DNA of 64,000 nt from Marinobacter sp. SS13-12 (GTDB lineage: Bacteria > Pseudomonadota > Gammaproteobacteria > Pseudomonadales > Oleiphilaceae). Below the pieces are notes generated by a model, which saw only the letters and a program-made list of their open reading frames with translations, had not been told where the DNA came from and made no database searches. How positions within the stretch are numbered: position 1 is the stretch's first letter; every line of letters begins with the position of its first letter. Below, piece after piece: positions 22,280 to 49,617 of this stretch. Made by a program: the position numbers and the translations under genes. The DNA lies in NCBI RefSeq assembly GCF_030227115.1, contig NZ_JASSUA010000004.1, positions 1 through 64,000 of the forward strand, in the 5' to 3' direction.

Positions 22280-22635
22280 ACACGAACCACCGGCAGACAG
22301 TCTGTCAACGCGGTGACCTTGCCGGAGGTCAGTTCGTAGAATTTTCCCTGAGTGATGGCACCGGCGGGCAGGATGAACAAACCGGCTTTGTCTTCGAGCG
22401 GGAAGGCCGGCTCTACGCCTACCTGAACCGCTGCCCTCACCTGGGCATCGGGCTGAACTGGATGCCCGGCCGGTTCATGGACCCGGACAATTGCTTTATC
22501 CAGTGCGCCAATCACGCAGCACTGTTCATTCCCGAGAATGGCCAGTGCATTGCCGGTCCCTGCCAGGGCGATACCCTGACCTCGCTGGCGGTAACGGAAG
22601 ACAACGGCGCAGTTCTGGTCAGGCTTCCAGGATGA
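22276..22635 (+). CDS. Rieske [2Fe-2S] domain protein
   Basis: 119-residue single-domain Rieske ferredoxin-like protein. The cluster ligands are in [10 protein letters not shown] and the second Cys-x2-His in CANHAALF. There is no signal peptide, so it is cytoplasmic. It is translationally coupled to the upstream fusion kinase and overlaps the end of convergent sfsA by 17 nt. Partner and substrate are unknown. Confidence 0.85.
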
Positions 22636-23347
22636 CCGGCACTGATTCGACCAGCGATACGTCCCCGTCCGGCCCTTCCGGACCCGACAATGCTGCCCTA
22701 TAGGCCAACAGTTCAACGCCCGCCGCATCTGCTTCACGCAACAGCTCACCGTAGGCCCGGTCGATATGATCCGCCGGCCGTACGCTGCTTATACCGGTAT
22801 GGTTGACCACAAAAAACAGCACCGCCCTTTCTCCGGCACGGGCCTGAGCCATCAGTTCCCGTAAATGTTTCTGACCCCGCGTCGTTACAGCATCCGGAAA
22901 ATAACCCCGGCCTTCCTCGCACAGGGTCACGTTCTTCACCTCCACCCAGGCGTCGGCAAGGCTCGGGTGGCCGGACAGGTGCAGATCAATCCGGCTTTTC
23001 TCGGCACCGTACCGCACCTCTGCCCGGCAATGCCCGTAACCCGACAATTCCGGCACCGTGCCCTGCTCGATCGCTTCCCGGGCCTGGTTATTGGGCCGTG
23101 CGGTATTGATACAGGCCACCTGGTCTGGTGAGGTTTCAACCAGCTCCCAGGTGTATTTCAGCTTGCGCTTCGGGTTGTCACTGGTGCTCAGCCAGACCCT
23201 CGCATCCGCCGGCTGACAACCCAGCATGGAGCCGGTGTTGGGACAGTGAGCGATTACTTCATTGCCATCCGGCAACAATACGTCGGCAAGGAAACGTTTA
23301 TAGCGGCGAATCAGCCTGCCTTCGACCAGCGGAGCGGGTAACTTCAT
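22619..23347 (-). CDS. sfsA: SfsA family DNA/RNA nuclease
   Basis: 242 residues. It has the family patterns [26 protein letters not shown] and [13 protein letters not shown], the last two resembling a nuclease core. SfsA was first named for sugar-fermentation stimulation and later linked to nuclease activity. The ATG at 23347 has GGAG 6 nt upstream and is chosen over 23359. It is convergent with the Rieske gene and divergent from dksA. Confidence 0.92.
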
Positions 23348-23466
23348 TGATGACTCCATGCTAAAGTTGTTGTTACAAGGCTGGCGCCCCTGAGACTAAT
23401 CTGCTATTTTCCGCAAATTCCCGTTTCAGGGCGAGTGCTTTTCAGGATTATAAGAGGCCGTATTCA

Positions 23467-24833: not shown

Positions 24834-24883
24834 ACGACATGTTATAAAGCTTCTCACAAACGACAGTGCGGATATCATGCCTG

Positions 24884-25060
24884 ATGTATATCTACCGTCT
24901 GGTCTTCCTTCTGGTTCTGGCCATCTACATATTCTCGCCCAACATTCTTGACTGGTGGACATCACCAGAGAATGCCTGGTACAGCCCATACGTCATCTGG
25001 GCTGGCCTGATTGCCATTGGCTTCTGGCTGGAATGGCGCCGGGATCCCAATGAGTTTTAG
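24884..25060 (+). CDS. CbrX-like small membrane protein upstream of cbrA
   Basis: 58-residue protein with two hydrophobic segments (about residues 3-18 and 34-48) and a charged end WRRDPNEF. Its last 11 nt overlap the cbrA start at 25050, so cbrA translation is probably coupled to it. Pseudomonas has a small ORF (CbrX) in the same place with the same overlap. A GTG at 24866 would add six residues. Its function beyond coupling is unclear. Confidence 0.7.
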   Translation: MYIYRLVFLLVLAIYIFSPNILDWWTSPENAWYSPYVIWAGLIAIGFWLEWRRDPNEF

Positions 25061-28010
25061 CGCTCCGGGCCTGTTACTGGCCAGCCTTCTGTATCTGATA
25101 CTGCTGTTCGGTATCGCATGGATTACCGAAAAGGGCGTGCTGCCTCGCAGCTGGGTCCGGCATCCCCTGGTCTACACACTGAGCCTCGGGGTCTATGCCG
25201 GCATCTGGGCGGTCTACGCCGCAGTGGGCATGGCCGCGGAATCCGGCTTTGGTTTCCTGGCCTATTACCTGGGCATCAGCGGCGCCTTCCTGCTGGCACC
25301 GGTGCTGCTCAACCCGGTCATGAGGATTGGCCGCGCCTATCAGCTTACGTCCCTTGCCGACCTGTTTGCCTACCGCTATCGCAGCCAGTGGGCCGGCACC
25401 CTGGTCACCATCTGTTCCGGCGCTGCCATACTCTCCCTGCTGAGCATGCAGATTCAGGCGGTATCCACCTCCGCCAGCCTGTTGGCACCAGACACCTCAC
25501 CCCGGCTGATCAGCATTCTGTTCAGCATTACCGTGGTGTTGTTCGCCATGCTGTTCGGCACACGGCGCAGCCAGGGTTCGGAAAACCACCAGGGCCTGGT
25601 GCTGGCGATCGCTTTCGACTCCCTGGTCAAACTGTTTGCCCTGCTGACCCTGGGCGGCGTAATCCTGTTTGGTGTATTTGGCGGCATGGGCGGGCTGGAG
25701 ACCTGGCTGGCAGACCAGAGCACACCGGTCAGCTCGATGACCATGAGCATTGATGACGGCAGCTGGCGGGCATTGATGCTGATGTCCTTTGCCGGCGCCC
25801 TGGTACTTCCTCACATGTACCATATGACCTTCAGCGAGAACCCGTCGCCCAAGGCACTGGCCAAGGCAAGCTGGGGCCTCCCGCTTTACTTGTTGATGCT
25901 GGGCCTGCCGGTGCCACTGATCCTCTGGGGCGGCCAGGCTCTGGCTGCCACCACCGGCCCTGACTTCTACGCCATTGGCATCGCCCAGGCGCTCGGTAGC
26001 CCGGCACTGACACTGCTGATGTACATTGCAGGGCTGTCTGCCGCCAGTGGGCTGATGATTGTCAGCACCCTGGCACTGGCGGGCATGGTGCTGAACCATG
26101 CCGTACTGCCTCTTCGCACGCCGAAAGACCAGGGCGATATCTACCACTGGCTGAGATGGGTAAAACGCCTGCTGATTGCCGCCATCATCTTTGCGGCATT
26201 GCTGTTTCACGAAACCCTGGGCAAGAACCTGGACCTGTCCATTCTGGGCGCTATTTCATTATCGGGCATGCTACAGCTGTTACCGGGGGCCCTTGGCGTC
26301 ATCTACTGGCCGGAAGGCAACCGCCGCGGGCTGATCGCCGGCCTGGTGTGCGGCCTGTTTATCTGGGTTGTCACCCTGGTGCTGCCGTTTTCCCACACGG
26401 CCAACCTGCTGGAATTTCTTGGCGCACCACTGGTTCCGGATTACAGCAACTGGCATATATTCACGTTTGTCAGCCTGACGGTAAACGTTGTCGTGTTTAC
26501 TCTGATCTCGGTGTTGAGCACCAGCACCGCTGAGGAAGCCGGTGCTGCAGAAGCCTGCTCACTCGGGGCACTTTCCCGCCCCCAACGCCGGGAGTTGCTG
26601 GCCACATCCTCGGCCGATTTCGTGCGGCAACTGGCGGTTCCCCTGGGACTAGGCGTTGCCGGACGAGAAGTGGAACGGGCGCTGACCCAGCTCAAGCTGC
26701 CCAATGTCGAGTACCGCCCCTACCAGCTCAGGCGCCTTCGCGACCGGGTAGAGGTGAACCTTTCGGGCCTGCTGGGCCCTGCTGTTGCAAGGGATCTGGT
26801 CAAGCGGCACCTTGGTTACAAACCCATGGCGAGTGGCGGTACGGCCCAGGATATCCGCTACGTGGAGCGGGCTCTCGGCGACTACCAGAACCGCCTGACG
26901 GGGCTGGCGGGCGAACTGGACAACCTGCGCAGACATTACCGGCAAACCCTTCAAAACCTGCCTATCCCTGCCTGTTCCGTGGGTGAAGACGGTGAAATCC
27001 TGATGTGGAACAACGCCATGGAATCCCTCACCGGCATTACCGCTGACGACGTCGTGGGTGCACGCCTGATGGCATTGCCGGAGCACTGGCACCTGTTGCT
27101 GGACGATTTCAACAGTGGCGAGGACCTGCATCGATACAAGCACAGGCTGGACCTTAAAGGCCGGCCCCACTGGCTGAACCTTCACAAGGCCGCATTGAGC
27201 GGCCCTGACCACACCGAGGGCGGCAGCATCATCCTGGTGGAAGACCAGACCGAAACCCGCCTGCTGGAAGACGAGTTGATGCACAGCGAACGGCTGGCAT
27301 CCGTGGGCCGGTTGGCGGCAGGTGTCGCCCATGAGATCGGCAACCCGGTCACTGGTATCTCGTCACTGGCCCAGAACCTGAAGCTGGAAACGGATGACCC
27401 CGACATCCTTTCCACCGCCGACCAGATTCAGCAACAGACCCGTCGCATTTCCACCATTCTCCAGTCGCTGATGAATTTTGCCCGCACCGGCAACCATGCC
27501 CATGCCAACCGCTATGAGCCGGTGGCCATTCGCCGCTGCGTGGACGAATCCATCAACCTGCTCTCACTCAGCGACAAGAGCATGGGAGTTCACTATGTGA
27601 ACGACTGCCCCGAAAACCTGTTGATTCTTGGCGACGAGCAGAGACTGGTTCAGGTCTTTATCAACCTGCTGGCCAATGCCCGTGACGCCTCACCGGTCGG
27701 TGGAACGGTCCGCATCAGTGGAAACCTCGACGGCTACTCCGCTATTATCGAAGTCACCGATGAAGGGTCTGGCATCCCGACAGAACAGCTGGACCATATC
27801 TTCGAGCCTTTTTACACCACCAAGGCACCCAACAAGGGCACCGGCCTTGGGTTATCACTGGTGTACAGCATCATTGAAGAACACTACGGCAACATACAGG
27901 TGGACAGTCCGGTAAATACTGACCTGGGCAGGGGAACCCGTGTGCGCATGAGGTTACCCGCCTACGAACCGGACGCCGGAAACACCATCAGCCAGAACCA
28001 GGGGTCGTAA
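25050..28010 (+). CDS. cbrA: Sensor histidine kinase CbrA (transporter-kinase fusion)
   Basis: 986 residues. The N-terminal half (about 1-490) is a sodium/solute symporter-like SLC5 domain with about 13 membrane helices. A STAC-like linker (about 530-610) and a PAS domain (about 640-740) follow. The HisKA domain has the phospho-acceptor in AAGVAHEIGNP, and the HATPase domain has NLLANARDAS and GTGLGLSLVYS. CbrA controls carbon and nitrogen source use through CbrB. The length and neighbours (gluQ, cbrB, pcnB) match Pseudomonas CbrA. The ATG at 25050 overlaps the small upstream ORF. Confidence 0.93.
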   Translation: MSFSAPGLLLASLLYLILLFGIAWITEKGVLPRSWVRHPLVYTLSLGVYAGIWAVYAAVGMAAESGFGFLAYYLGISGAFLLAPVLLNPVMRIGRAYQLTSLADLFAYRYRSQWAGTLVTICSGAAILSLLSMQIQAVSTSASLLAPDTSPRLISILFSITVVLFAMLFGTRRSQGSENHQGLVLAIAFDSLVKLFALLTLGGVILFGVFGGMGGLETWLADQSTPVSSMTMSIDDGSWRALMLMSFAGALVLPHMYHMTFSENPSPKALAKASWGLPLYLLMLGLPVPLILWGGQALAATTGPDFYAIGIAQALGSPALTLLMYIAGLSAASGLMIVSTLALAGMVLNHAVLPLRTPKDQGDIYHWLRWVKRLLIAAIIFAALLFHETLGKNLDLSILGAISLSGMLQLLPGALGVIYWPEGNRRGLIAGLVCGLFIWVVTLVLPFSHTANLLEFLGAPLVPDYSNWHIFTFVSLTVNVVVFTLISVLSTSTAEEAGAAEACSLGALSRPQRRELLATSSADFVRQLAVPLGLGVAGREVERALTQLKLPNVEYRPYQLRRLRDRVEVNLSGLLGPAVARDLVKRHLGYKPMASGGTAQDIRYVERALGDYQNRLTGLAGELDNLRRHYRQTLQNLPIPACSVGEDGEILMWNNAMESLTGITADDVVGARLMALPEHWHLLLDDFNSGEDLHRYKHRLDLKGRPHWLNLHKAALSGPDHTEGGSIILVEDQTETRLLEDELMHSERLASVGRLAAGVAHEIGNPVTGISSLAQNLKLETDDPDILSTADQIQQQTRRISTILQSLMNFARTGNHAHANRYEPVAIRRCVDESINLLSLSDKSMGVHYVNDCPENLLILGDEQRLVQVFINLLANARDASPVGGTVRISGNLDGYSAIIEVTDEGSGIPTEQLDHIFEPFYTTKAPNKGTGLGLSLVYSIIEEHYGNIQVDSPVNTDLGRGTRVRMRLPAYEPDAGNTISQNQGS

Positions 28011-28017
28011 AACAGTT

Positions 28018-29424
28018 ATGTCTCGTATTCTTATCGTAGAAGATGAAGAGATTATCCGTTCGGCGGTTCGCAAGCTGCTCACACACGCAGGCTACGAGGT
28101 CGCAGACGCGGGATCAGTAGAAGAAGCAGAAGACAACCACGACCTCACCCAGTTTGATCTGATCATTTCCGACCTGCGCCTGCCCGGCGCCCCGGGGACC
28201 GAACTGATCAGGCGCGCGCCGGACACTCCGGTACTGATCATGACCAGCTATGCCAGCCTGCGCTCCGCCGTGGACTCCATGAAAATGGGGGCCGTGGAAT
28301 ACATCGCCAAACCGTTCGACCACGACGAGATGCTGGAAGCGGTGGAAGGCATTCTTGCCAGGCAGCCACAAGCCGCCAGCACTGTTGATGAAAAACCCGG
28401 CCGCGGCACCGCCAGTGATCCTGACAGCGACCCGGCAAGCATCATGTTTGGCCATTGCGATGCCATGCAGAGGGTTTTCACCCTGATTCGCAAGGTGGCA
28501 CCCACTGAAACCACAGTGCTGATTCAGGGTGAATCAGGCACTGGCAAAGAACTCGCGGCCAGGGCACTGCACCTGATGAGCCCCCGCGCATCCAACCCAC
28601 TGATTTCCGTGAATTGCGCCGCTATCCCGGAAAGCCTTATCGAGTCAGAGTTGTTCGGCCATGAAAAAGGGTCGTTCACCGGTGCTGTTTCTGCCCGCAC
28701 CGGTCTGATCGAAGCCGCAGACGGCGGCAGCCTTTTCCTCGATGAAATCGGCGAGTTGCCCGCTGAAGCCCAGGCCCGTCTGCTGCGGGTGCTTCAGGAA
28801 GGAGAGATACGCAAGGTAGGTTCCACCCAGAGCCGCCAGGTAGATGTACGCATGATTGCCGCCACCCACCGCAACCTCAAGGCCATGACCCGCACCGGCG
28901 AATTCCGGGAGGACCTGTTTTATCGGCTGAACGTCATGCAGGTTCGCATTCCGCCCCTGCGGGAACGCCAGGCAGACATCCTGGGCCTTGCCCAGCGCTT
29001 CCTGAAACGTCAGGGCGAGAAAATGGGGAAACCCGACCTGAACCTGACGCCAGAGGCCATGCGGGCACTGGAAAGGCATCGCTGGCCCGGAAATGTCAGG
29101 GAGCTGGAGAATGCCATCGAGCGTGCCACCATCCTCTGCGACAACGACCTGATCACCCCCTCGCTGCTGGACCTGGATGGCGAAGGTGGTGATGTAAACA
29201 TCCCGGAATCCCTGGTGGACGGTAACAATGAACAAACTCTCTCGCGGGAGGCCGAATCAACCAGTGACCTGTCGCTTGAGGACTATTTCCAGCACTTTGT
29301 GCTGGAAAATCAGGACCGCATGAGTGAAACCGAACTGGCACAAAAGCTCGGCATCAGCCGAAAGTCCTTGTGGGAACGGCGGCAGCGCCTTGGCATTCCC
29401 CGCAAAAAGAGCTCAGGCAATTGA
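28018..29424 (+). CDS. cbrB: Sigma-54-dependent response regulator CbrB
   Basis: 468 residues in NtrC-type order. The receiver domain has acidic EDEE and phospho-acceptor D in LIISDLRLPG. The AAA+ domain has Walker A GESGTGKE, a sigma-54 contact loop GSFTGA in place of GAFTGA, and Walker B GGSLFLDEIGE. A C-terminal helix-turn-helix follows (ETELAQKLGISRKSLWERRQ). It is 7 nt downstream of cbrA. The next DNA carries a CbrB-type palindrome and a sigma-54 promoter, so its likely direct target is the adjacent sRNA. Confidence 0.94.
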   Translation: MSRILIVEDEEIIRSAVRKLLTHAGYEVADAGSVEEAEDNHDLTQFDLIISDLRLPGAPGTELIRRAPDTPVLIMTSYASLRSAVDSMKMGAVEYIAKPFDHDEMLEAVEGILARQPQAASTVDEKPGRGTASDPDSDPASIMFGHCDAMQRVFTLIRKVAPTETTVLIQGESGTGKELAARALHLMSPRASNPLISVNCAAIPESLIESELFGHEKGSFTGAVSARTGLIEAADGGSLFLDEIGELPAEAQARLLRVLQEGEIRKVGSTQSRQVDVRMIAATHRNLKAMTRTGEFREDLFYRLNVMQVRIPPLRERQADILGLAQRFLKRQGEKMGKPDLNLTPEAMRALERHRWPGNVRELENAIERATILCDNDLITPSLLDLDGEGGDVNIPESLVDGNNEQTLSREAESTSDLSLEDYFQHFVLENQDRMSETELAQKLGISRKSLWERRQRLGIPRKKSSGN

Positions 29425-29448: not shown

Positions 29449-29539
29449 TGTTACCGGAAAAGTGTGAACTGGCGCTCAGTTGTTACCCCGTGTTCCTCAC
29501 GGTAACACCCGCGATCTAAAAAACGAGCGTTCAGTAACA
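29449..29539 (+). promoter_or_regulatory. CbrB-type operator region (UAS)
   Basis: A full palindrome TGTTAC-N15-GTAACA lies at 29481-29507. A further TGTTAC half-site (29449-29454) and a GTAACA half-site (29534-29539) flank it. This fits the CbrB-binding arrangement known upstream of crcZ in Pseudomonas. It ends about 75 bp before the sigma-54 promoter, a normal enhancer distance. The central palindrome can also fold into a hairpin that might terminate cbrB. Confidence 0.75.
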
Positions 29540-29613
29540 CTTCGGACTTATACGTACCCCTCTTGAAAGATTGCAAAATACTAACTCGCTGTTAATAAAC
29601 AGTTTTCAAAAAC

Positions 29614-29629
29614 TGGCACACGGACTGCA
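29614..29629 (+). promoter_or_regulatory. Sigma-54 promoter of the CrcZ-like sRNA
   Basis: The -24 element TGGCAC (29614-29619) and the -12 element CTGCA (29625-29629) keep the strict GG-N10-GC spacing of sigma-54 promoters. Transcription is expected to start near 29640. Confidence 0.85.
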
Positions 29630-29639
29630 CTCTATAGGG

Positions 29640-30022
29640 CGCACAACAACAAAAACAACAGTGACAACGCAGCGCCAACAACAAGAACAAAAAGCTGTAG
29701 AAGACGTTCGGTAACAAAAACAAAAACAGAACGTGAGCGAACTGAGTGTTTTGGGTACTTTGCTTTTTAGTGGTCCCACGGCACGTGCGGGTTGTAGATG
29801 TGGAGAAGAATCGTCGCTCAGACGGCACTGCATTTACCTTATAACCTGCCCGGTGTCTCTGACTGCTCTGTGTATTCAAAGCTTTCCGTTTGCACTACTG
29901 ATGTCCCTGAACTTGGGGATTGACAGTGGGGTAGAAAAACGAAGAAAAATCCCGGTAAAAACAAAAACAATGCAGATCGTCAACGCTTTCAGGGCGGGTT
30001 CGTGAAAACGGACCCGCCTTTT
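29640..30022 (+). ncRNA. crcZ: CrcZ-like small RNA (Crc/Hfq decoy)
   Basis: About 383 nt with no convincing reading frame, bounded by a sigma-54 promoter and a strong terminator, in the cbrB-pcnB gap where Pseudomonas encodes the 407-nt CrcZ. It carries at least five A-rich clusters fitting AAnAAnAA: 29645-29658, 29677-29690, 29713-29720, 29942-29949 and 29957-29970. Such motifs bind the distal face of Hfq with Crc. In Pseudomonas CrcZ sequesters Hfq/Crc and relieves carbon catabolite repression. The start is predicted from the promoter; the end is the terminator. Confidence 0.83.
29993..30022 (+). terminator. Terminator of the CrcZ-like sRNA
   Basis: A 10-bp stem GGCGGGTTCG / CGGACCCGCC (one G-U pair) with a TGAAAA loop is followed by TTTT. 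It ends the sRNA about 140 nt before pcnB. Confidence 0.9.
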
Positions 30023-30164
30023 GATTATCTGGCCCAGTGGTTTTCCAACCCGGCCAGATCTGCCCCCGACCAACCAGTTTTTGCCGGCTTATGGCGCCAG
30101 ACATGTGCAAATCCCGCCCAAACCGTTAAACTCTCGCTTTTGCTCACCGCAATAACGGAATTCA

Positions 30165-31511
30165 ATGCTTAAACGACTATTGTCATACGTATCAGGAAAC
30201 GGGAAGAAAAAGCCCCGCACCTATCAGCGCCAGGAAATTCCCCGGGATCAGCACAACGTGTCCCGCTCGGCCATCAGCGAGCCGGCCAAGAAGGTGCTCA
30301 GCCGCCTGAACAACGCCGGCTATGAAGCCTACCTGGTGGGCGGCGGCGTTCGTGACATACTTCTAGGAGGCAAGCCCAAGGACTTCGACATCGCCACCAA
30401 TGCCACCCCGGAAGAGGTGCACGAGCTGTTCCGCAATTCCAGGTTGATTGGCCGGCGCTTCCGCATCGTCCACGTACTGTTCGGGCGGGAAGTCATTGAA
30501 GTCACCACCTTCCGCGGTAACGCCGCGGACGCGGAAGAAGACAGTGACGAAGACGATGACCGCAGAACCAGCGAACACGGCCTGCTGCTGCGGGATAACG
30601 TCTACGGCAACCAGGAAGAAGATGCCCTGCGCCGGGACTTCACCGTCAACGCGCTTTATTACTGCATCCGGGACTTCACCGTGGTGGACTTCGCCAACGG
30701 CCTGGAAGACCTGAAGAACCGCCAGATGCGACTGATCGGTGACCCGGAAACCCGCTACCGGGAAGACCCTGTTCGCATGCTTCGCGCCATACGCTTCGCC
30801 GCCAAGCTGGGTTTCGATATCGAACCGGAAACCGAGGCCCCGATCCGGGAACTGGCGCCGCTGCTGACGCACATCCCGCCGGCGCGGTTGTTTGAAGAAG
30901 TACTCAAACTGTTCTCCGCGGGCTACGGTGAGGCCACCTACGACCTGCTCAGCGAGTACAACCTGCTGGCCCCGCTATTCCCGGAAACCGTTCAGGCCAT
31001 CAACAACGGCCAACCGGACGAACTGATCCGCAAGGCGCTTCGCAATACCGATGCCCGCATTGCCCAGGGCAAGTCCGTTACCCCCTACTTCCTGTTTGCC
31101 GCCATGCTCTGGCCCGCCCTGCAGGCAGAGTGGCACAAACGCCAGGATAACGGCGAGCCGGTCCAGCCGGCCCTGCACCAGTCCATTGCCAAGGTTATTG
31201 GCCGCCAGGTTCAGGCGACCTCCATCCCTAAACGTTTCTCAGGCCCCATGAAGGAAATCTGGGAACTGCAGATGCGCCTGCCCCGGCGCCAGGGAAAACG
31301 GGCCTTTGTGACCATGTCTCACCCGCGCTTCCGGGCGGCCTATGACTTCCTGCTGGTGCGGGAAGAATCCGGTGAAATCGAGCCCGGACTGGGCGAGTGG
31401 TGGACCGAGTTCCAGGAATTGGACGAGCGCGGCCAGGAACGCATGCTGACTCAACTGGGCAGCGACAGCCCCAAGAAGCGTCGCCGCAAGAAGCCTGCAA
31501 AGAAGGCCTGA
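30165..31511 (+). CDS. pcnB: Poly(A) polymerase I
   Basis: 448 residues. It is a class II nucleotidyltransferase with the signature LVGGGVRDILLG and the catalytic pair KDFDIAT. Then comes RRDFTVNALYY and the RNA-binding region DPVRMLRAIRFAAKLGF. The very basic C-terminus (KKRRRKKPAKKA) separates it from tRNA CCA-adding enzymes. It adds poly(A) tails that promote RNA decay. It is followed after 2 nt by folK. Confidence 0.95.
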   Translation: MLKRLLSYVSGNGKKKPRTYQRQEIPRDQHNVSRSAISEPAKKVLSRLNNAGYEAYLVGGGVRDILLGGKPKDFDIATNATPEEVHELFRNSRLIGRRFRIVHVLFGREVIEVTTFRGNAADAEEDSDEDDDRRTSEHGLLLRDNVYGNQEEDALRRDFTVNALYYCIRDFTVVDFANGLEDLKNRQMRLIGDPETRYREDPVRMLRAIRFAAKLGFDIEPETEAPIRELAPLLTHIPPARLFEEVLKLFSAGYGEATYDLLSEYNLLAPLFPETVQAINNGQPDELIRKALRNTDARIAQGKSVTPYFLFAAMLWPALQAEWHKRQDNGEPVQPALHQSIAKVIGRQVQATSIPKRFSGPMKEIWELQMRLPRRQGKRAFVTMSHPRFRAAYDFLLVREESGEIEPGLGEWWTEFQELDERGQERMLTQLGSDSPKKRRRKKPAKKA

Positions 31512-42659: not shown

Positions 42660-42736
42660 GGGCCTATAGCTCAGTTGGTTAGAGCAGAGGACTCATAATC
42701 CTTTGGTCCCTGGTTCGAGTCCAGGTGGGCCCACCA
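42660..42736 (+). tRNA. tRNA-Ile2 (CAU anticodon, lysidine-modified)
   Basis: 77 nt with encoded CCA. The acceptor stem GGGCCTA / TGGGCCC, the D-loop, the anticodon loop CTCATAA (anticodon CAT) and the T-arm GGTTCGAGTCC all fold. The pairs C4-G69 and C5-G68 are those recognised by the lysidine synthase TilS in tRNA-Ile2; elongator tRNA-Met usually has other bases there. I therefore call Ile2 rather than Met. The 3' end appears to have served as an integration site. Confidence 0.88.
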
Positions 42737-48002: not shown

Positions 48003-48279
48003 ATTCCCCCCAGAAAACCTGCAACAGTTCACAACTCCCCGTAACAGAAAAAAACACTTTCCGGCCTGATAAGACTCTGTATTTCGGTCATTTTTAAATC
48101 ATCTTTCACTGGCAAGTGGTCATTGCGACATCAAAAGCTGTCAAGAAAGCCAACGTCCCGATAAGACAAGAACACTACACTGCTTTTCGAACAAACGTAC
48201 CAACAATGGTTGTCAGCCCTGTCACCTCTCCGGTGCACGGCGAAGATCAATAACAAGACCAACGAATGGAGTGTGTTTC
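48003..48279. other. Leader of the FadL-like gene
   Basis: About 280 bp without a gene. A short repeat CyGATAAGAC occurs near 48066 and 48163. AATAACAA (48249-48256) fits the AAnAAnAA Hfq/Crc motif and stands 11 nt before the GGAG ribosome binding site (48268-48271). I see no strong promoter boxes. Confidence 0.4.
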
Positions 48280-49617
48280 ATGGTCCCGACCTCCCGCTTT
48301 TCTGTGCGCGCTTTGACGCTCGCCGTTGCAGCCGCCTCTGCCGGCTTATCATTCAGCGCCTCTGCCAGTATGGGCAACCTGGGCACTAGCTATGGCGTTA
48401 TGCCCGTGGATGTTGCAACCGCTCAGTCACTGTCCATGTTCAACGATCAGGTATCGGCTACTTATTACAACCCGTCTTACCTGACTAGCGACGAGCGCGG
48501 TGAGCTCACTGGTGGCATTCTTCATGCGGAGCAGGAGTTGCGCTCCAGCCGGTCTGATGCAGACGGCGACATCGTCTCGAACTCACCGAGCCAACATGTG
48601 CTGATCGGGATGAAAACCAACCTTGCCTCGCTGACCCGTTTCAAGCACCCGATTTACCTGGGTTTTATTGCCGGTGTTGAGAAATATGGCAAAGAGATGC
48701 TGGCCTTCTCTTCCGAAACCTCTGAAACCGGCCAATATCTCCAGTACGGCAAGGAACCCCTGTTCCTGAATATCGGCGGTGCCACCCCGCTCTGGCGTGG
48801 CATTTCGGGCGGTTTTTCGGTACGCGTGACTCTGGAGGCGGCCGCACAACTGGACGCAGTGTCCACGCTTGGCGGGGAAACCAGCCGCGAGCGGCTTGCG
48901 GTTAACGCTGAGCCTTCCCTTAAATCCATCCTGGGCACCACCATCAAGTGGGGCGATACCTTCTGCCCTGACAGCAGTTGCTTCCTGGATGGCTGGGAGT
49001 CGGCGCTGACCTACCGCACCAAGTCCTCCGCTTCCACTTCGGTTGACTCCAACATCATCGTTACCCAGACCATTCCGGATCCGGGCCTGAGCCTCGCGGT
49101 TGCCACCATTGATTCCTTCCAGCCGGAAACCATCGCCATTGGCACCCAATACAAGGGTGACGGCTGGCGTGTCGGTGGCAGCATCGAGCAGCAGAACTGG
49201 TCGGAGCTGGAAGACGAATTCGCCGGCGACAGCATCAAGGACCAGGAGAATGTCAGTGCCGGCAACCGCATCGGCTTCGACGACACCCTGGTTCCCCGCA
49301 TCGGCGCCGAATACCAGTTAAGCCGTAATTTTGCCCTTCGCGGCGGCCTGGCTTACGAAGAGTCGCCCCTGAAAACCACCCGCAACCCCGAGCTTAACTA
49401 TCTGGATACCGACAAGATCGTGGCCGGGCTGGGTATCAGCGCCACCTACGAGCGCACCCGTCTGCTGGCTTATCCGGTGCGCCTGGATATTGGTTACCAG
49501 TACCAGCAGTTGCAGGATCGGGATTTCACCATCGTCGACTTTGACGGCAACGAACGCCAAACAACTGCCGACGGTGATATTCATGTAATCAGCGGCTCCA
49601 TCACCCTGAAGTTCTGA
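48280..49617 (+). CDS. FadL-family outer-membrane transporter (AupA-like?)
   Basis: 445 residues. The signal peptide is about 1-30 (SFSASA-SM). The beta-barrel ends in the outer-membrane signature ...GSITLKF. It has the FadL-like N-terminal hatch pattern and alternating strands but lacks the classical NPA start. FadL proteins carry long-chain fatty acids or hydrocarbons across the outer membrane. It is followed after 13 nt by a huge lipoprotein. Marinobacter is known to use a FadL homologue plus partner (AupA/AupB) for alkane uptake, and this pair may correspond, but I cannot confirm identity. The ATG at 48280 has GGAG 8 nt upstream. Confidence 0.75.
   Translation: MVPTSRFSVRALTLAVAAASAGLSFSASASMGNLGTSYGVMPVDVATAQSLSMFNDQVSATYYNPSYLTSDERGELTGGILHAEQELRSSRSDADGDIVSNSPSQHVLIGMKTNLASLTRFKHPIYLGFIAGVEKYGKEMLAFSSETSETGQYLQYGKEPLFLNIGGATPLWRGISGGFSVRVTLEAAAQLDAVSTLGGETSRERLAVNAEPSLKSILGTTIKWGDTFCPDSSCFLDGWESALTYRTKSSASTSVDSNIIVTQTIPDPGLSLAVATIDSFQPETIAIGTQYKGDGWRVGGSIEQQNWSELEDEFAGDSIKDQENVSAGNRIGFDDTLVPRIGAEYQLSRNFALRGGLAYEESPLKTTRNPELNYLDTDKIVAGLGISATYERTRLLAYPVRLDIGYQYQQLQDRDFTIVDFDGNERQTTADGDIHVISGSITLKF

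Follow-up and report, generated by a model that had tools for sequence, protein, structure and literature searches.

The 740-bp gap between cbrB and pcnB in Marinobacter sp. SS13-12 very probably encodes an orthologue of CrcZ. In Pseudomonas this RNA acts as a decoy for the Hfq/Crc repressor and allows cells to turn to less favoured food sources. CrcZ in this organism is a known kind of RNA, and its breadth is the news. We consider it likely that the CbrAB-CrcZ-Hfq/Crc circuit is ancestral to the whole GTDB order Pseudomonadales rather than a speciality of the Pseudomonadaceae. On this reading every one of the 26 sampled families has an RNA module behind cbrB or, in one family, at pcnB only; the module is mostly beyond the reach of the Rfam model, would have been duplicated in tandem inside one gap in some lineages and separated from cbrB in others, and is lacking from CbrB-like genes outside the order. 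Passages of a research paper and of a review (PMC6296734, PMC8871633) call CbrAB exclusive to the Pseudomonadaceae, those of the review holding that crcZ synteny makes CbrAB unique to that family. The sequences analysed here contradict this exclusivity, and the weight of the finding comes from its breadth together with this contradiction of a stated taxonomic limit. The RNA and its partner genes in Marinobacter and in sequences of related families suggest that the circuit extends beyond the Pseudomonas family, to which it had been ascribed. No paper in the open-licence literature pairs 'CrcZ' with 'Marinobacter', and among the matches listed from that literature no title or abstract start describes CrcZ outside the Pseudomonadaceae. 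CbrAB transcripts have been reported in a marine metatranscriptome (PMC5073097), and the passages concerned do not assign them to Marinobacter.

Genomic context and identity of the RNA

The window, that is, the whole stretch of 64,000 nucleotides analysed, carries the gene neighbourhood listed here.

24866..25060, + strand: small CbrX-like reading frame of 64 aa; 11-nt overlap with the likely start of cbrA (ATG 25050)
25050..28010, + strand: cbrA, sensor kinase; PAS, HisKA and HATPase domains (Pfam), about 10 hydrophobic segments; likely start ATG 25050
28018..29424, + strand: cbrB, NtrC-type sigma-54 response regulator; Pfam Response_reg and Sigma54_activat
29637..30023, + strand: crcZ, predicted transcript of 387 nt; start inferred from promoter spacing
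30165..31511, + strand: pcnB, poly(A) polymerase, downstream neighbour; NCBIfam TIGR01942, 524.8 bits

Over 980 columns CbrA shares 52% identity with the Pseudomonas fildesensis protein (L127), and CbrB is 62% identical to its counterpart there, with equal synteny; Pfam SSF gave no match to the N-terminal part of CbrA. The RNA gene lies downstream of cbrB as a separate unit and upstream of pcnB. The small ORF before cbrA is hydrophobic and has the place and approximate size of cbrX; it has no Pfam or NCBIfam match, and the loci compared for the cbrA region start at or past its place. P. putida cbrX, in a passage of the review cited for it, has 58 aa and a 17-nt overlap (PMC8871633), and by place, size and overlap the Marinobacter ORF may be said to resemble it.

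A search with the Rfam CrcZ covariance model (RF01675), proposed as a check in the earlier note on this DNA, gave a full-length match (29652-30051, model positions 1-398) at 50.4 bits, with E values of 6.6e-12 in the genome search and 4.4e-12 in the gap search. It was the sole match in the genome, all 76 candidates having been scored, and 0 of 14 control genomes matched. The score does not reach the gathering score of 95 bits, which is a reporting threshold and not a biological feature, and by the gathering-score rule alone the RNA is not a listed RF01675 member. At the gathering threshold, Rfam identifies just a tRNA (42660-42733) in the whole window; the lack of a match at that threshold is not absence. 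A match to the L20_leader family at 29936-30031 (21.4 bits against a cut-off of 58.7, E 0.11) was taken as chance. Within the genus, RF01675 matches were found in 98 of 100 sampled genomes and none was over the cut-off, which fits the earlier statement that automatic annotation leaves the gap empty. In the two genomes without a match (G026 and G087) the contig stops 287 and 491 nt past cbrB, and both retain the promoter, the half-sites and the first A-rich motifs. The family gave matches in 140 of 151 sampled genomes (11 of 16 genera), none reaching the cut-off, and the order in 72 of 390, with 19 over it. That the RNA is homologous to CrcZ and occupies its locus, the central proposal of the earlier note, is supported by the Rfam match, the synteny of cbrB, RNA and pcnB, the promoter and half-site architecture, and covariation.

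Promoter and CbrB half-sites

The gap holds, in order, four predicted CbrB half-sites, a sigma-54 motif, A-rich clusters and a terminator. The upstream elements are as follows.

29449..29454, + strand: CbrB half-site F' (TGTTAC), from motif scan
29481..29486, + strand: CbrB half-site F1 (TGTTAC), 133 bp upstream of the sigma-54 motif
29502..29507, + strand: CbrB half-site R1 (GTAACA), from motif scan
29534..29539, + strand: CbrB half-site R2 (GTAACA); GTAACA at -80/-81 in 40 of 40 genus rows
29614..29629, + strand: sigma-54 promoter, -24/-12, TGGCACACGGACTGCA, GG-N10-GC

The strict pattern TGGCAC-N6-TGCW has two matches in the window against 0.61 expected, with at least two in 10 of 100 shuffles, and taken alone the sigma-54 motif is not significant. 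Similarly, a scan for terminators alone found 1 against 1.2 expected. As neither scan is above chance by itself, the weight of both elements comes via conservation: the sigma-54 motif keeps a constant place relative to the half-sites and the A-rich motifs in 40 of 40 genus rows (38 distinct places), and the promoter with GG-N10-GC spacing that had been read at 29614-29629 is thereby borne out. The other sigma-54-like match, at 25294, lies inside cbrA and was set aside.

The four predicted half-sites (29449-29539) were absent from the earlier note. The published CbrB site of P. putida, as given in a passage of the source, consists of F1 (TGTTAC) with R1 and R2 (GTAACA), neighbouring centres being 20-25 bp apart (PMC6296734). 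Here F1 and R1 are 21 bp apart and R1 and R2 32 bp; since F' and F1 are also 32 bp apart, the array reads F-R-R on both strands. Such an array, expected 0.00 times in the window, was found at one place, read on both strands, and this is its single place in the whole 4.64-Mb genome. By motif, the gap carries a sigma-54 promoter with predicted F1-R1-R2 half-sites, of which the R1-R2 distance of 32 bp exceeds the published spacing. A search for an IHF site in this region gave none that is clear, the candidates carrying 2 mismatches to the consensus.

A-rich sites, fold and terminator

The predicted transcript contains the following elements.

29645..29662, + strand: A-rich Hfq-type site 1, (ARN)6, motif run
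29677..29694, + strand: A-rich site 2, (ARN)6, two AAnAAnAA clusters, motif run
29713..29730, + strand: A-rich site 3, (ARN)6, in the loop of a covarying hairpin
29737..29758, + strand: core helix (helix 5), 5' arm (GCGAAC...), pairing with 29872-29893
29872..29893, + strand: core helix, 3' arm, GTATTCAAAGCTTTCCGTTTGC, pairing with 29737-29758
29942..29949, + strand: A-rich site 4, short, AAGAAAAA, from motif scan
29957..29971, + strand: A-rich site 5, (ARN)5, motif run
29991..30020, + strand: intrinsic terminator, 13-pair stem with 8 G-C pairs, then a T-rich tail

Six non-overlapping AAnAAnAA clusters lie in the gap (29645 to 29970), at least five having been claimed, and dinucleotide shuffles hold 1.3 on average and 4 at most (n=100). 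The pattern AANAANAA occurs 38 times on the two strands of the 64 kb, overlapping occurrences included, and 14 of these fall within 29645-29970. The RNA has the multiple (ARN)n stretches, n at least 4, of CrcZ, here as four runs with n of 5 or 6, and four runs of n of at least 4 were reached by 0 of 1000 shuffles. The earlier note had held that loss of the A-rich motifs in close relatives would count against the RNA; 4 to 6 (ARN) runs are kept in each of the 38 genus homologues.

Counterparts of crcZ with its terminator could be extracted from 38 of 38 genus gaps, and for the fold alignment near-identical sequences among these 38 distinct transcripts were thinned, leaving 34. Among 80 predicted pairs, 25 change on both sides with pairing kept, against 11.6 in shuffles, 0 of 500 of which reach 25, and 3 to 7 in controls with slid partners. 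The core helix is nearly invariant, with 15 of its 20 pairs never varying. In the predicted fold the A-rich sites fall in unpaired stretches between helices, sites 1 to 3 in hairpin loops. A terminator-like stem is found in 38 of 38 genus homologues, and in this stem (helix 14) 3 of 13 pairs have changes on both sides. The GC-rich terminator described earlier is present, conserved and covarying; its stated 10-bp stem did not stand, the stem having 13 pairs, 8 of them G-C.

Distribution of the module

We counted as a module any sigma-54 motif that is followed at 24-48 nt by AAnAAnAA and preceded at 55-170 bp by a CbrB half-site. Such a module was found in 144 of 158 distinct stretches from the order, a count that is not a census because most loci were fetched by a CrcZ or CbrB match, and in which duplicates were removed crudely, by an identical end or start of the stretch, and four loci (L081-L084, family genomes without a complete CbrB gap) were left out. 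All 47 distinct gaps of the genus and 25 of 27 from other genera of the family carry it. Among loci picked for the position of cbrB instead of a match to the RNA, the count is 27 of 31. No sampled family, of 26, is without a module, although in f8 it occurs only at pcnB, with cbrB elsewhere. When all 204 stretches were dinucleotide-shuffled in 20 passes, 1 module arose in total.

Fourteen of the 158 stretches from the order are without the module. L044, L115 and L122, which offer neither cbrB nor pcnB as an anchor, were scanned in stored orientation alone; L119 has pcnB but neither cbrB nor a half-site; two stretches, L126 (355 nt) and L263, are short; and in L125, from a Pseudomonadaceae MAG, CbrB is present and the 1500 nt that follow hold nothing. 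In L245 and L246 cbrB does not adjoin pcnB. The remaining five (L079, L095, L116, L222 and L238) have kept half-sites and A-rich runs, and failed the promoter or spacing rule.

CbrB orthologues (E<=1e-130) were found in 285 of the 390 genomes of the order, with one match listed per genome, and Crc-like proteins (E<=1e-45), which are not cleanly separated from XthA, in 288. A CbrB search of genome contigs kept 80 loci, 73 of them at 37-48% identity (the paralogue range); the seven at 59-63% (L125-L131) were used. Module carriers outside the Pseudomonadaceae include Gilvimarinus agarilyticus, G. gilvus and a Cellvibrionaceae MAG (L128, L129 and L131), and further loci are taken as Hahella sp. 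KA22 (L101), Hydrocarboniclastica marina (L087) and Marinobacter salinisoli (L018). Outside the order, 22 sampled genomes have a CbrB-like protein at 52-64% identity, and the module was found behind such genes in 0 of 20 stretches read (L270-L289).

Two variant arrangements were observed. A tandem pair of CrcZ-like modules lies behind one cbrB in L239, L250, L251, L262, L118 and L225, which come from four families of the order. In family f8 (L105, L106 and L107) a CrcZ-like module lies upstream of pcnB with cbrB elsewhere in the genome, and in the two distant cbrB genes checked (L245 and L246) there is no module behind cbrB.

If the circuit is indeed this widespread, this RNA sponge would also set carbon preference in marine and oil-degrading bacteria such as Marinobacter and Hahella. 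The CrcZ circuit is concealed by annotation habits, namely the cut-off of the CrcZ model and the naming of Crc as exodeoxyribonuclease III. The order-wide loci also provide a deep comparative data set on the RNA features that an Hfq/Crc sponge needs.

Partner proteins and candidate targets

CbrA, CbrB, Crc and Hfq are all encoded in the genome; the search for crc and hfq suggested in the earlier note found both. Hfq matches NCBIfam NF001602 at 141.8 bits and keeps Q33, T49, Q52 and K56, with F in place of the Y of PAO1 at residue 25. Crc is encoded beyond the window.

G000:C4:70578-71381, 6.6 kb past the window end: Crc, 268 aa, matching P. aeruginosa Crc chains at 240 bits

This ORF is flanked by ORFs that we take to be rph and pyrE. 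Two Crc chains match it at 240 bits, and chain 2myi, labelled Exodeoxyribonuclease III and presumably a Pseudomonas Crc, at 230.7; the following exodeoxyribonuclease chain scores 143 bits. By sequence, the protein is closer to Crc than to XthA. It also scores over the cut-off of NCBIfam TIGR00633 (xth), which fits the public name exodeoxyribonuclease III; NCBI uses this name for such Crc proteins in Marinobacter, Hahella and Oleiphilus.

Candidate targets were sought genome-wide as AACAAnAAnAA within 12 nt of an ATG. The genome has this motif at 15 places and a reversed control pattern at 10, a weak enrichment barely over control, and the target argument rests on which genes are hit. The places correspond to 14 distinct sites, of which eight have an ATG that opens an ORF of at least 238 codons and six an ATG followed by an ORF of just 4 to 73; for comparison, 286 of 1953 ATGs in the window are followed by 200 open codons. 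The eight long ORFs are given below; some look like putative uptake or catabolic genes, and their finer NCBIfam names are all below cut-off:

LamB-type porin, adjoining the sugar-type binding-protein gene
Sugar-type ABC binding protein (Pfam SBP_bac_1), directly behind the LamB-type porin
OmpR-type regulator, its start 2.3 kb before that of the porin
3HB-oligomer hydrolase, A-rich start motif
UgpC-like ABC ATPase, A-rich start motif
Branched-chain-amino-acid-type binding protein, A-rich start motif
Two DUF6160 proteins (L297 and L302), long A-rich motif at their starts

The porin, the sugar-type binding protein and the nearby response regulator (L294, L295 and L296; G000:C1:1505510-1509292) are each A-rich at the start. 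In Pseudomonas, genes for sugar uptake are among the known classes of Hfq/Crc targets, and the A-rich starts of these three genes are as expected of putative Hfq/Crc targets. Within the window, the sole 2 of 43 naive genes with AAnAAnAA before the start are 22619-23359 (- strand), presumably SfsA, and 48271-49617 (+ strand), in which it lies 15 and 22 nt before the first start codon.

Proposed mechanism and alternatives

We infer from these sequences that Marinobacter CrcZ is expressed, binds Hfq/Crc and relieves repression, and that the circuit works in vivo. On exhaustion of good carbon sources CbrA would activate CbrB, which, bound to its half-sites, would drive sigma-54 polymerase at crcZ. 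The (ARN)n stretches of CrcZ would then occupy the distal face of Hfq, and CrcZ would titrate Hfq/Crc off the A-rich ribosome-binding sites of uptake and catabolic mRNAs, allowing their translation.

It is improbable, though the least so of the alternatives, that the RNA sponges Hfq alone, with catabolite control running via Hfq only and the Crc homologue having dropped out or doing something else. Relative to the P. aeruginosa complex, Crc is changed at several contacts with RNA or with a second Crc, namely E142 (Q), K155 (V), M156 (T), W161 (L) and R162 (Y), as well as E193 (D), R196 (K) and R230 (K). The complex may as a consequence not be identical to that of P. aeruginosa, and the loss of K155, W161 and R162, of the second RNA-contact mode, and of the Crc-Crc contact E142 would suit sponging of Hfq alone, as would the nuclease positions that Crc retains (D229-, D258- and H259-like). 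However, Crc here retains K135, R138, K139, R140, R141, R229 and A78 of P. aeruginosa Crc, and the basic patch of the first mode (K135, R138, K139, R140 and R141) is common to all 8 Crc proteins from outside Pseudomonas that were compared, whereas the organism's own XthA has none of these five residues; R140 is needed in P. aeruginosa Crc, according to a passage of PMC6422490. A nuclease role for Crc is opposed by its changes relative to the XthA of the organism at the nuclease positions E34 (to D), D151 (to N) and N153 (to Q).

A sponge for Hfq and Crc together, acting in trans, is also preferred over a transcript that is mainly a leader or read-through product regulating pcnB in cis, a reading we regard as very improbable. 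In the gaps measured, pcnB does lie downstream on the same strand, but the covarying terminator closes the RNA about 140 nt before pcnB, and the A-rich repeats fit a trans-acting decoy.

That the gap encodes a small protein is barely credible. ORFs of 90 and 95 codons are present in the list of reading frames, but the 90-codon ORF (29733-30005) and the minus-strand ORF partly inside the RNA (29592-29879) are each open and in frame in just 3 of 34 aligned homologues, and parts of two further minus-strand ORFs in 7 and 12 of 34; the gap ORFs are broken by stops and indels in most homologues and have no Pfam or NCBIfam match. The earlier description of about 383 nt without a convincing gene agrees with these counts. 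Equally hard to credit is an RsmA/CsrA sponge of the RsmZ type, which a structured sRNA of decoy design might suggest, given just 3 GGA and 1 ANGGA in 387 nt, conserved elements that are (ARN)n and an Rfam match to CrcZ.

Comparison with known systems

The Marinobacter RNA shares with Pseudomonas CrcZ its cbrB-pcnB location, sigma-54 promoter, TGTTAC/GTAACA half-sites and terminator, and its A-rich repeats between helices. The core sequences AGCnAACUGA...UUUGG and CAAA...CGUUUGC are common to the RNA here and the Rfam consensus; AGCGAAC and CGTTTGC pair here, whereas the Rfam structure pairs just the UUUGG/CAAA part. The RNA is 387 nt long against 407 nt in Pseudomonas, and scores 50.4 bits. 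In family f20, which contains the strong matches and is taken to be Pseudomonadaceae, 22 of 23 matches score 213-368 bits. P. aeruginosa CrcZ has six long ARN runs, as described in a passage of PMC4063720, and the RNA here four. Upstream, F1, R1 and R2 lie at -133, -112 and -80 here, against about -124 for F1 and about -104 for R1 in Pseudomonas, and R1 and R2 are 32 bp apart against 20-25 bp in P. putida.

Some Pseudomonas and Azotobacter have second copies, CrcY and CrcX, which share the RNA class and activator of CrcZ, as a passage of one review states (PMC8871633). Here there is no second RF01675 match that would indicate such a copy, and under stricter filters the 98 matching genomes of the genus have one each. 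RsmY/RsmZ and CsrB/CsrC are likewise decoy RNAs that titrate an RNA-binding repressor, the motif being GGA for RsmA. The titration of an RNA-binding repressor proposed here would be analogous, but it involves another protein and another motif, and the evidence here gives no sign of kinship with these RNAs.
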